From contig JAPPBY010000028.1 of NCBI GenBank assembly GCA_026702615.1, forward strand, positions 1 to 64,000: a stretch of DNA of 64,000 nt. Reading direction: 5' to 3'. Source of the DNA: Chloroflexota bacterium (GTDB lineage Bacteria > Chloroflexota > Dehalococcoidia > Tepidiformales > Tepidiformaceae). The notes under the pieces were generated by a model. It was not told the origin of the DNA and did not search any database. It saw nothing but the letters and a program-made list of their open reading frames with translations. The position numbers and the translations under genes are program-made. This document shows, piece after piece, positions 27,819 to 39,436 of the stretch. The first letter of the stretch is position 1, and every line of letters starts with the position of its first letter.

Positions 27819-29099
27819 CTAGCGGTCCGGGCCCTCCAGGTAGTCGTCGATGACCTTGTGCATGTGGCGGATGCGGCGCTCGCGGTAGTTGATCAGCAAC
27901 CCCTTGAACGAACGCGAGTTCATCCCCTTCTGCACGCGCGGCAGGTTGTACGAGTCCTGGTCGAGCCCCAGCCCGAGCGATATCTCGCCGTGCTTGTGCG
28001 TCGTGTGCACCGGGCGCGGCGGCGGGTCCGAGCCCTCCGGGATGCGCACGTAGTTCTGCAGGTCGTAGTACATCTTGTTCGGGTCGGTCGCGTGCGGCCG
28101 CTGCCGGAACAACATCACGCCCGAGTGGTGCGTGTTCAGCGTGATGTTCGGGAAGATGTAGTAGTGGTAGTCGTCGCTGAGCTGGTCGTCGTTCAGCTCT
28201 GACAGGTCGATTCCGTGGTCGGCGGCGTGCTTCTTCACCTGAGCCTGGAGGGCGGGCCGCACGTCCGCGGGACCGCCTTCGAACGTCTCCGGGTCGATGC
28301 CCGCGGCTTGCAGCATCTCCTTCAGCGCGCGCGTCAGCTCCTCCTGGTTCGGGTAGCGTGGGCTCAGAAGCCCGAACGGCACCAGGTAGCGGTTGTGCCG
28401 TTCGTACAGGTCGATCTGCACGTGGATGTCATCGATGTTCTCGAGGATCTGCGGGTGGATGCCCTGCACGTGATACACCTCGTTGAAGGCGTCCACCGAG
28501 GTCTTCCAGTTGCAGTCCCACTCGATCGTGACGTCCTGGACGAAGTACTGCTTCTCGAAGTGGTAGGGGTTGAGGTGGTCGGGGATCTCTCCGAGGAACT
28601 CCATCAGGGGCTCGGCGTCGGGGTTCATGTTGAACCAGACCCAGCCGCCCCAGGTGTCGCAGGGCACCTCGATCAGCGCCGTCTCCTGGGGCACGCCCTG
28701 AGTGAAGGTGTCCTCGTCGGGGACGAACTTCTTCGAGCCGTCGAGGTTGAACTCGAAGAAGTGGTAGGCGCACTGGAACGACTCCGCATGCCCCATGCCG
28801 GCGTTGCGTATCTGGTTCCCGCGGTGGGGGCAGACGTTGTAGAAGGCGCGCACCTTCTCCTCCGCCTCCCGCACGATCAGGAAGGACTCGGGACCCAGCT
28901 CCGTCGTGAAGTAGTCCCCCACGTTGGGGATGTCCTGCGTGCGACCGGCGATGTTCCACACCTTGGTCCACATGCGCTCCCACTCGCGGTCCATGAACTC
29001 CTTCGAGATGTAGCGCTCCTTGGGGATGAGGTCGGTTCCGAGGACTGGCTCGGACGCCTTCGTGGTCGGCGTTTGCTGGGACACGGATTCGAGGACCAT
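27819..29099 (-). CDS. Rieske aromatic ring-hydroxylating oxygenase, alpha subunit (copy 2)
   Basis: A 426-residue paralogue of the 18573-19850 protein. It has CPHRGN and CAYHFFEF as Rieske ligands and NWKTSVDAFNEVYHVQGIHP at the iron site. Long blocks match the other copy (GRTQDIPNVGDYFTTELGPES region, NKMYYDLQNYVRIPEG region), while the middle substrate region differs. SDR genes lie on both sides, suggesting oxidation of the hydroxylated product. Confidence 0.92.
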   Translation of the reverse strand: MVLESVSQQTPTTKASEPVLGTDLIPKERYISKEFMDREWERMWTKVWNIAGRTQDIPNVGDYFTTELGPESFLIVREAEEKVRAFYNVCPHRGNQIRNAGMGHAESFQCAYHFFEFNLDGSKKFVPDEDTFTQGVPQETALIEVPCDTWGGWVWFNMNPDAEPLMEFLGEIPDHLNPYHFEKQYFVQDVTIEWDCNWKTSVDAFNEVYHVQGIHPQILENIDDIHVQIDLYERHNRYLVPFGLLSPRYPNQEELTRALKEMLQAAGIDPETFEGGPADVRPALQAQVKKHAADHGIDLSELNDDQLSDDYHYYIFPNITLNTHHSGVMLFRQRPHATDPNKMYYDLQNYVRIPEGSDPPPRPVHTTHKHGEISLGLGLDQDSYNLPRVQKGMNSRSFKGLLINYRERRIRHMHKVIDDYLEGPDR

Positions 29100-35853: not shown

Positions 35854-36327
35854 ATGGCGAGATTCCGTTCCATCCTGGCCCCGGTGGTGGATGACTCGGC
35901 CAGCCTTGAGGCCGTCGCTGTGGGCGCCGCACTGGCGCGCCAGGAGAAAGGCGTCCTCACCCTCCTGCATGTCATCGAAGTCGAGCGCAGCCTGCCCGTC
36001 ACCGCCGACCTGGACCTGGAAGCCCAGCGCGGCGAGGAACTGCTGCGCCGCGCCCGCGCGCTCGCCGAGGGCGAAGGCAACGGCGCCACCATCGAGGACG
36101 AGCTCCTGCAGGCGCGCGTGGCCGGCCCCGCCATCGTGGAGGAGGCCGAGGCCCGTGGCGTCGACGTGATCTTGCTCGGCGTCGGCTGGACTCCCCTCCT
36201 CGGCCAGTTCGAGGTCGGCCCCACCGCCGGCTACGTCCTCAAGCACGCGTCCTGCAACGTCTGGATCGTGCGCGAGCCGCTGGAGCTGCCCGCTCCCGCC
36301 GCCGGGAAGGCCGCGGCCCGCCGGTGA
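35854..36327 (+). CDS. Universal stress protein family protein
   Basis: A 157-residue UspA-fold protein. It starts FRSILAPVVDDSASLEAVAVGA and ends with GVGWTPLLGQFEVGPTAGYVLKHASCNVWIV region typical of the family. The ATP-binding GxxGx9G motif is altered (GVGWTPLLGQ), so nucleotide binding is uncertain. GGAGGG supports the ATG. Its stop overlaps the TrkA-N gene as GTGA. Usp with TrkA points to a potassium or osmotic response. Confidence 0.85.
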   Translation: MARFRSILAPVVDDSASLEAVAVGAALARQEKGVLTLLHVIEVERSLPVTADLDLEAQRGEELLRRARALAEGEGNGATIEDELLQARVAGPAIVEEAEARGVDVILLGVGWTPLLGQFEVGPTAGYVLKHASCNVWIVREPLELPAPAAGKAAARR

Positions 36328-36734
36328 ACGTCGTCATCATGGGCTGCGGGCGCACCGGGGCCGCCATCGCCGCCAGCCTCGACCGCGACGGCCACTCCGT
36401 CACCGTGCTCGACCTCAACTCCGGCCAATTCCGCCGCCTCCCCGATGGCTTCGGCGGACGCATGGCCGTCGGCAACGGCATGGATGCCGACGTCCTGGAG
36501 CGCGCCGGCGCCCGCGAGGCGGACGCCTTTGTCGCCGTCACCCAGGGTGATAACCGCAACTACTTCGCCAGCCAGCTCGCCCGCGAGATCTTTGGCGTGC
36601 AGCACGTGGTCTGCCGCACGAAGGACCCGGAGCGGGGCGAGATCTTCGGCCACCTCGGCCTCCAGACCTACAGCCCCACCAGCGCGGGGGCGGAGGCGAT
36701 CATCGCCATGCTGCCCAACCCGGGACCGGCCTGA
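36324..36734 (+). CDS. TrkA-N (RCK N-lobe) protein, single domain
   Basis: A 136-residue protein holding one Rossmann domain of the TrkA type: VVIMGCGRTGAAIA, then acidic VTVLDLN at the end of beta-2, GNGMDADVLERAG and VAVTQGDNRN. The GTG start overlaps the upstream stop by 4 nt. There is no C-terminal TrkA-C domain. It would bind NAD(H) or ATP and gate a K+ channel or Trk/Ktr transporter, which is not encoded nearby. Confidence 0.88.
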   Translation: MNVVIMGCGRTGAAIAASLDRDGHSVTVLDLNSGQFRRLPDGFGGRMAVGNGMDADVLERAGAREADAFVAVTQGDNRNYFASQLAREIFGVQHVVCRTKDPERGEIFGHLGLQTYSPTSAGAEAIIAMLPNPGPA

Positions 36735-36737
36735 GCC

Positions 36738-37412
36738 GTGTACGTCATCATCGCCGGCGGCGGCAAGGTCGGGTACTACCTCGGGCGCGAGCTCCTCGGC
36801 GGTGACCACGAGATGCTCGTCATCGAGCGCAGCGCCTCCCGCGCCGCCGAGATCAACGACCTGCTCGAGGGCACCGTCCAGCAGGGAGACGCATGCGAGG
36901 CGTCTGTGCTCGACGGCGCCGGCATTGCCCGCGCCGACCTCGTCGCGGCCGTCACCGGCGACGACGAGGACAACCTCGTCGTCTGCGAGATCGCGCGCTA
37001 CCGGGGCGTCCCGCGCGTCCTCGCCCGCGTCAACAACCCCACGAACGCGCTCCTCTTCCAGAAGCGCGGCATCGAGACGACGGTCTCCGCCACGGAGGCA
37101 ATCCTCTCCCAGATCGAGCAGGAGCTGCCCGTCACCTCGATGGTCCCCGTGATGCAGCTCCACCAGGGGCTGGAGCTGGTCGAGGTGCGCCTCTCGGAGA
37201 CCTCGCCCGTGGTGGGACGCACGCCACGCGAGGTGTTGCTGCCCCCCGAGTCGCTCATTGCCCTCATCGTCGATTCCGGCGGCGTGCCCCGCGTCCCCGG
37301 CGCCGATACCACCCTCACCGCCGGCGACGCCCTTGTCGTCGTAACCCGCGCCGAGAGCAAGGGGATGCTCCAGGAAGCGCTCATCGGGGGCGCGCATGGG
37401 TTCGACACCTGA
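36738..37412 (+). CDS. TrkA-family potassium uptake regulator (N+C domains)
   Basis: A 224-residue protein, half the length of E. coli TrkA. TrkA-N: YVIIAGGGKVGYYLGREL, LVIERSASRA, VVCEIARYRGVPRVLARVNN region. TrkA-C from about residue 140: LVEVRLSETSPVVGRT and ADTTLTAGDALVVV. It starts with GTG 3 nt after the single-domain protein, so the two are likely made together and may form mixed rings. Confidence 0.9.
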   Translation: MYVIIAGGGKVGYYLGRELLGGDHEMLVIERSASRAAEINDLLEGTVQQGDACEASVLDGAGIARADLVAAVTGDDEDNLVVCEIARYRGVPRVLARVNNPTNALLFQKRGIETTVSATEAILSQIEQELPVTSMVPVMQLHQGLELVEVRLSETSPVVGRTPREVLLPPESLIALIVDSGGVPRVPGADTTLTAGDALVVVTRAESKGMLQEALIGGAHGFDT

Positions 37413-37428: not shown

Positions 37429-38250
37429 GTGAAGGTCGCCTTCCTTGGCCCGCCGGGCACCTTCGGCGAAGAGGCCGCGCGGCGCTACTTCCCCGACCCC
37501 GATCTGCTCCCCTGCCAGACGCACGGCGCCGTCGCTCGCGCCGTCGAGGCGGGCGAGGCCGAGACTGGCGTCATGGCCATCGAGAACTCGCTCAACGGCT
37601 CCGTGCCCGAAACCCTCGACATCCTCATCCACGAGACCGCCCTCAAAATCCAGGGCGAGGTGCTCGTGCCGGTTGTGCACAACCTGGTCGCCGCCCCGGG
37701 CACGGCCGTCGACGAGATCGAGCTCATCTACTCCCACCCACAGGCACTCGGGCAGTGCCGCGTCTTTCTCGGGCAGCACTGCCCCGAGGCCCAGCGCGCC
37801 GCCGCGCTCTCCACCGCGCAGGCTGTCGAGCTCGCCGTCGCCCAGCCGGGCGCCGCCGCCATCTCCACGGTCCGCGCCGCCGAGATCTACGGGGCCGACG
37901 TTCTCGCCGAGGCCATCCAGGACCAGGACAGCAACGCCACCCGCTTCGTGGTCGTGGGGCGGCACGAGCCTGAGCCCTCGGGCCGGGACCGCACCTCCAT
38001 CGCCTTCGAGTTCGCCGGCGACCGCGCTGGCCTCCTCACCGCCGCCCTCACCGAGTTCTCCAGCCGCGGCATCAACTGCACCAAGATGGAGAGCCGACCC
38101 ACCCGCGCCACCTTCGGCGAGTACATCTTCCTCATCGACTTCGAGGGTCACGAGTTCGACCCCGAGTGCGCCGCCGCCCTCGACGGACTGCGCGGCATGA
38201 CGACCATGCTCAAGGTGTTCGGCAGCTACCCCCGGGCGTTCGATGGCTAG
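37429..38250 (+). CDS. pheA: Prephenate dehydratase
   Basis: A 273-residue enzyme that converts prephenate to phenylpyruvate in phenylalanine synthesis. It starts VKVAFLGPPGTFGEEA and has the catalytic NATRFVVVGR (TRF) motif. A C-terminal ACT domain (IAFEFAGDRAGLLTAALTEF, then KMESRPTR) binds phenylalanine for feedback control. The GTG at 37429 follows GGGAGG; an ATG at 37396 would overlap trkA by 17 nt. No chorismate mutase domain is fused. Its stop overlaps the DUF3179 gene. Confidence 0.93.
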   Translation: MKVAFLGPPGTFGEEAARRYFPDPDLLPCQTHGAVARAVEAGEAETGVMAIENSLNGSVPETLDILIHETALKIQGEVLVPVVHNLVAAPGTAVDEIELIYSHPQALGQCRVFLGQHCPEAQRAAALSTAQAVELAVAQPGAAAISTVRAAEIYGADVLAEAIQDQDSNATRFVVVGRHEPEPSGRDRTSIAFEFAGDRAGLLTAALTEFSSRGINCTKMESRPTRATFGEYIFLIDFEGHEFDPECAAALDGLRGMTTMLKVFGSYPRAFDG

Positions 38251-39436
38251 GGCGCTCGCGGCCGCCGTCGCGACGCTGACCCTCGGGCTGGCGGCCCTCG
38301 CCTGCGGCGGCTCCGACCCGGGGGCGCCCCCCGCCGCGCCCACCGAACCGCCTGCCACCGAAGCCGCCACCGCTACCGCCGCCACGGAACCCCCCGCCAC
38401 CGAGGCTCCCGCCACGCAGCCCGCGGACTCCACGCCCCGCGCGACCGAGGCGGCGGCGCCTGCGGACCCCCGCCAGCCGGGCGACCCCGACCTCGAAATC
38501 GTCACCCTCCTCCCCCCCGACGCCATCCCCGCCGTCGACAACCCCCGCTTCATCACGGCTGAGGAGGCCGACCAGCAGCTCGCTCTGAGCGACCTCGTCA
38601 TCGGCGTCTCCATCGACGGAAAACACCGCGCCTACGGCGCCGCCTTCCTCAGCGCCCACGAGATCGTCAACGACACGCTCGGAGGCCGCGCCATCGCGGT
38701 CACCTGGTGACCGCTCTGCTTTACGGGCATCGTGTATGCCCGCGAAATCGAGGGAGAAACGCTCAGCTTCGGCGTGTCGGGGAAGCTCATCATGAACGCC
38801 CTCGTCATGTTCGACCGCCAGACCGAGACCCTCTGGAGCCAGTTCCTCGGCGAGGCCGTCGAGGGGCCGCTCAAGGGCACGCCCCTTGAGGTGGTGCCCG
38901 CCGTCCTCACCACCTGGGAGAGCTGGCGCCAGCTCCACCCCGATACGCAGGTGCTCGATCAGGGCGGCTTCGTCATGGACGCCTACAACGGCTACTACTT
39001 CAGCCCCCAGGCGGGCGTCATCGGCGAACGCAACGCTGACGATCGCCTCTTCGGCAAGGAGCTCGTCCACGGGGTCGTCATTCCCCAGGGGCGGAAGGCC
39101 TACTCGCATCGCGTCCTCGCCGAGCATCCCGTCGTCAACGACCTCATCGGCAACCAGCCCGTGCTCGTGGCCTGGGACACCGTCGGACGCGCCGCCATCG
39201 CCTACGACCCCACGGTCGACGGTCGCCTCCTCACCTTCGAGGTCCATGAGCCCGACGCCAGCGGCGAGACCCTGCGCGACCTCGAGACCGGCTCCGTCTG
39301 GTCCGTGCTCACGGGCGAGGCGCTCACGGGAGAGCTTGCTGGCTCCCGCCTCGAGGTCCTCAACGGGTTCGCCGTCTTCTGGTTCGCCTGGTCCGACTAC
39401 TTCCCCGACACCGATGTGTTCCAGCCGGAGGGCTAG
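38243..39436 (+). CDS. DUF3179-family lipoprotein, probable selenoprotein (in-frame TGA = Sec)
   Basis: A 397-residue protein if TGA 38708-38710 (codon 156) is read through. The N-terminus is a signal with Cys at LAALAC then a Thr/Pro/Ala linker. The DUF3179 domain starts near residue 90. Just before the TGA the frame reads GGRAIAVTW and just after it PLCFTGIVYAREIEG, then LSFGVSGKL and MFDRQTETLWSQF. In this family the position is normally the first Cys of CPLC, so the protein would carry U-P-L-C, a typical Sec/Cys redox pair. The frame stays open for 241 more codons with family-like sequence. It overlaps pheA by 8 nt. A pseudogene or sequencing error is the alternative. Confidence 0.8.
38724..38742 (+). 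promoter_or_regulatory. Candidate bacterial SECIS hairpin
   Basis: A perfect 7-bp stem CGGGCAT-CGTGT-ATGCCCG lies inside the coding sequence, 13 nt after the in-frame TGA. The loop starts 20 nt after the TGA and has G as its second base. Known bacterial SECIS elements have a small G-containing loop about 16-37 nt downstream of UGA, where SelB binds. Confidence 0.7.

Follow-up and report, generated by a model that had tools for sequence, protein, structure and literature searches.

A DUF3179 gene in a Chloroflexota genome of 2.87 Mb appears to encode a selenoprotein. The gene lies in the window, the whole 64-kb stretch of DNA analyzed here from the start of its contig, and contains a single in-frame TGA followed by a hairpin. 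We read this hairpin as a bacterial SECIS element, with a probability of about 0.96 given the sequence comparisons below; SelB with Sec-tRNA(Sec) would insert selenocysteine (Sec) at the UGA, yielding a full-length DUF3179 protein with a UxxC motif. The evidence in hand comprises the geometry of the hairpin, its conservation, the covariation of its stem, its restriction to UGA copies, and a complete Sec machinery.

Read through the TGA, the gene product matches PF11376 over residues 93-390 (E 2.3e-87, 293.5 bits against a cut-off of 27), and NCBIfam has no model matching the gene. The frame stays open past the TGA and continues into homologous DUF3179 protein, with the TGA standing where homologues have the first Cys of CPLC (TW-U-PLC). 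With its PF11376 match and UPLC at the motif, the gene shows the feature that marks a DUF3179 selenoprotein, a predicted Sec in UxxC/T. Translation table 11 splits it into ORFs at 38243-38710 and 38732-39436, and standard gene calling breaks it into fragments of 155 and 234 amino acids. The lipobox of the putative N-terminal export signal is imperfect, as judged by eye. A prephenate-dehydratase gene flanks the gene on one side and an ABC transporter pair on the other. The same genome holds two more DUF3179 copies without TGA (L050 on G000:C8 and L051 on G000:C13), with CPLC at the motif in one and CTLC in the other.

Table 1 Features of the DUF3179 gene and its predicted SECIS element, in window coordinates.
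Feature	Position	Strand	Basis
DUF3179 gene with one in-frame TGA	38243-39436	+	397-aa read-through; Pfam PF11376
N-terminal hydrophobic stretch ending in Cys (ALAC), putative lipoprotein-like export signal	38243-38305	+	translation, inference
First DUF3179 half with UxxC, predicted Rieske-like beta fold	38579-38965	+	model pLDDT 95.6, fold comparison
TGA (UGA) codon, proposed Sec	38708-38710	+	alignment with homologues
SECIS stem, left arm CGGGCAT	38724-38730	+	sequence, covariation, folding
Apical loop CGTGT, second nucleotide G	38731-38735	+	sequence; homologue comparison
SECIS stem, right arm ATGCCCG	38736-38742	+	sequence, covariation, folding
Second, homologous half without UxxC	39062-39433	+	HMM-HMM, fold comparison

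The original prediction placed a SECIS-type hairpin right after the TGA, with a perfect stem, a G in the second loop position, and the loop 20 nt downstream, inside the 16-37 nt range of bacterial SECIS elements. Sequence and coordinates bear this out: the 7-bp stem (38724-38742) is perfect, and the spacing from TGA to loop spans 38711-38730. In its available text, the bacterial SECIS model of PMC13188914 specifies a loop of 3-9 nt, a stem of 4-16 bp, a spacing of 16-37 nt, an MFE <= -7.5 kcal/mol, and a G at loop position 1 or 2 with a U after it. The window hairpin falls within range throughout (5 nt, 7 bp, G second, 20 nt, and -11.4 kcal/mol), the energy being that of an RNAfold prediction on 38708-38748 that returns precisely the CGGGCAT/ATGCCCG stem. 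The warning attached to the prediction, that GC-rich DNA readily folds, was also right. Compared with dinucleotide shuffles, the hairpin energy is ordinary, as 35 of 200 fold equally well (z -0.90) and z is only -0.10 with a 61-nt segment; folding energy was rejected as evidence for SECIS on this ground. A comparable hairpin, defined as a Watson-Crick stem of at least 7 bp meeting the spacing and loop-G rules, follows 25 of the 1313 TGAs on both strands of the window (1.9%). Because the folding energy is unremarkable and such hairpins recur at this rate, it is the comparison with homologues that decides. The window sequence by itself is no more than suggestive, and the case rests on conservation and covariation across aligned copies.

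The ordinary folding and the 1.9% of window TGAs with a chance hairpin also speak for the best-surviving alternative, that the gene is decaying, with the TGA a nonsense mutation or a sequencing error and the hairpin a product of chance in GC-rich DNA. A case of this kind may exist among the homologues, where L106 (G365:C36:61784-62734, minus strand) keeps the Cys of CPLC but carries a TGA at the position of a conserved Trp, probably because the gene is broken or the TGA an error. Decay of the window gene is nonetheless very improbable: a TGA copy with an open frame is present in 8 of 9 members of the genus, TGA and open frame recur at the same codon in other families and classes, and the stem covaries.

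This covariation was measured in a first sample of 99 DUF3179 loci (L017-L116; L093, a duplicate of L092, was excluded). A motif expression, widened for L111 and L113 (both TGA), located 81 of them and missed 18. The located loci comprise 34 distinct TGA copies, aligned without gaps, and 47 Cys copies, among the matches listed, so that TGA totals are lower bounds. A helix, scored as at least 6 consecutive pairs in either of two fixed registers, is present in 31 of the 34 TGA copies, which goes against the possibility, raised at the outset as a refutation, that TGA homologues might lack the hairpin. The three others have 5 (L115), 4 (L096), and 3 pairs (L111), with no clear helix for L111 and L096 in the registers tested; some copies (L030, L092, L100, L101, L103, and L049) pair in a register displaced by one position, with a loop of 8 nt. 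Set beside the bacterial SECIS model, most DUF3179 TGA copies have in common a loop CGUGU or CGGGU (CGTGT in 19/34 and CGGGT in 8/34). Across the 34 copies, 84.0% of helix cells are paired versus 69.5% after shuffling, and 28 cells show double changes versus 6.4 (0/500 shuffles). The covariation score of 0.346, versus 0.104 shuffled, is reached by 0/500 shuffles, and helix versions slid along the alignment are at most 46.6% paired. The expected stem covariation is therefore present, with compensatory arm variants CGGGCAT/ATGCCCG, CGGCCAT/ATGGCCG, CGGGCGT/ACGCCCG, CGAGCAT/ATGCTCG, and CTGGAGT/ACTCCAG.

Cys homologues served as the control. A further 28 Cys copies were added from 37 loci (L128-L164; 3 not located, 6 placed at another codon), and the same helix is found in 2 of the 75 Cys copies (47 + 28), as against 31 of 34 TGA copies, so that the hairpin is far from equally present in the two groups, the outcome that would have counted against the original prediction. 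Helix columns in the 47 Cys copies resemble their own shuffles (43.2% versus 42.3% paired). The most informative are four Cys copies inside the Sec clade (L145, L148, L150, and L155), which have a near-identical peptide and no hairpin. The two Cys copies with a helix are L083 and L161; the latter (G370:C338) adjoins the window's clade on the tree and has a 6-pair run in the shifted register with a loop G, possibly a relic SECIS left after a Sec-to-Cys switch, or chance.

A later phylum-wide search provided a second sample, mostly from other classes, of 18 TGA copies from 11 genomes among the matches listed, 10 of these genomes outside the class. The copies are not all independent, as 5 of the 11 genomes come from one genus. 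Sixteen TGA loci were placed by the motif expression and two (L185 and L186) by reported coordinates, and 17 of 20 fetched Cys loci were located. The helix is present in 16/18 TGA copies and 0/17 Cys copies, and L185 and L186 have a 7-bp hairpin in a different register. L193 and L194, which stand outside these counts, have a TAG elsewhere; their motif residue is Cys, and neither has a hairpin.

There is overlap between the helix and conserved codons, and most Sec and Cys clades differ in the peptide, both of which would suit a second alternative in which the stem merely mirrors conserved amino acids (TGIVYAR) and there is no RNA structure. Synonymous re-coding of the next 17 codons, using the codon usage of 8 window genes, however, gives such a hairpin in just 0.36% of 20000 trials, and Cys homologues with FTGIVYDR peptides occur without one. 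The arms also co-vary, for example from the window stem to the CTGGAGT/ACTCCAG variant, and PLCYTGLVHDR-type copies form a different stem in the same place. An origin in the peptide is thus a shade less probable even than decay.

The SECIS reading calls for a decoding apparatus, and the window's genome encodes SelA (515.9 bits), SelB (298.7 bits, with SelB winged-helix domains), SelD (347.4 bits), and a tRNA-Sec with anticodon tca (71.1 bits). SelD (L119; G000:C8:40194-41129, plus strand) has its own in-frame TGA, in the context LTGCGG-TGA-ASKAG, and on this sequence is probably itself a selenoprotein. SelB (E <= 1e-60) is found in 28/32 class genomes with the motif TGA among the matches listed, versus 259/393 overall. 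The four TGA genomes without a SelB match at 1e-60 (G046, G141, G261, and G281) are 69-87% complete, and at 1e-40 three of them show SelB matches, all below the cut-off. A tRNA-Sec was detected in 39/43 TGA genomes and in 28/28 of those with at least 90% completeness and at most 5% contamination; the search of the 43 found no match in G040, G046, G062, and G620. Decoding of UGA as Trp or another ordinary residue, which would also leave the frame open beyond the TGA, has a negligible probability, since the site aligns with Cys and not Trp, the Sec machinery is present, and the neighboring genes at 36324-36734 and 36738-37412 terminate in TGA, so UGA is a stop here.

Within the class, 143 of 393 genomes have DUF3179. 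On a tree of 109 copies built by a quick method, Sec and Cys were exchanged in 9 changes, at least 6 of them on starred branches. Over six tree-independent pairs, the hairpin accompanies Sec in a mean of 4.4 pairs, and the opposite association does not occur; the sign test on these pairs, which are too few, is not significant (median p 0.125), and part of the association between hairpin and Sec is therefore shared descent.

AlphaFold modeled the DUF3179 protein with a pLDDT of 94.0, and the first half alone with 95.6. The two halves are clearly duplicates by sequence (HMM-HMM probability 99.8, E 1.3e-29, 33% identity). Each half has a predicted fold similar to Rieske-type ferredoxins and NirD-like proteins. 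By title, every match listed for the first half is a Rieske ferredoxin, a Rieske oxygenase, or a NirD-type or related protein, the best against Rieske-type folds having a VIA Z of 8.8, which carries a middling-Z warning (rmsd 3.5, 98/106 aligned; Foldseek E >= 0.04). Nearly all matches listed for the second half are likewise Rieske-type by title (best VIA Z 9.0, rmsd 3.1, 92 aligned). The VIA listings are no evidence against families that they omit. DUF3179 differs from Rieske proteins in lacking the CxH...CxxH ligand set, a Pfam Rieske match, and HMM-HMM support. In the alignment, the CxH and CxxH boxes are absent from the window protein, PF00355 gave no Pfam match up to E 10 among 34 members, and a PDB sequence search with the protein returned nothing credible. 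Rieske homology by sequence was tried against 10 Rieske domains encoded in this genome and rejected, with profile probabilities of 1.2% for the first half and 4.2% for the second. Since sequence methods are blind to the relation and the ligand boxes are missing, the predicted structures point to a relation that is fold resemblance, not membership. Rieske-domain matches occur in the window itself, on the minus strand at 19458-19709 and 28707-28958, and total 22 in the genome.

Taken together with the SECIS reading, these observations suggest how the gene may work. SelB with Sec-tRNA(Sec) would bind the loop downstream of the UGA, and Sec inserted there would give a full-length protein in which a U-P-L-C pair stands where CxxC is usual. 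The product would be exported and possibly lipid-anchored, and its selenol-thiol pair may act as a redox center in a Rieske-like fold without cluster ligands; the placement of Sec relative to the Rieske ligand positions is inferred. A broader proposal, which we hold tentatively and at somewhat less than even odds, is that DUF3179 is a tandem-duplicated Rieske-like fold that lost its cluster ligands and carries an exported UxxC/CxxC site, a thiol/selenol redox or metal site, near the ligand positions, with Sec and Cys swapped repeatedly and a SECIS element gained or lost each time.

DUF3179 (PF11376) is tabulated as a UxxC/T selenoprotein family in the available text of PMC9312934 and PMC13188914, both citing Zhang and Gladyshev 2007, and the window gene is therefore a new and well-supported example of something already known. 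Like the listed proteins, it belongs to this Pfam family, and its proposed Sec opens the UxxC motif; it differs from them in coming from Chloroflexota and in being backed by covariation and a Cys control. The word "Chloroflexi" is absent from the available text of both papers, and "Chloroflexota" from that of PMC13188914. Our literature search found no paper naming both Rieske and DUF3179. New here are the Chloroflexota DUF3179 selenoprotein, for which the Sec case is well supported, the covariation and Cys control, the 6-9 Sec/Cys switches, and the predicted Rieske-like fold. The family offers a clear natural experiment, in which Sec and Cys have been exchanged at least 6-9 times and the hairpin nearly always tracks Sec, and the predicted Rieske-like fold would provide a first structural handle on this domain of unknown function.
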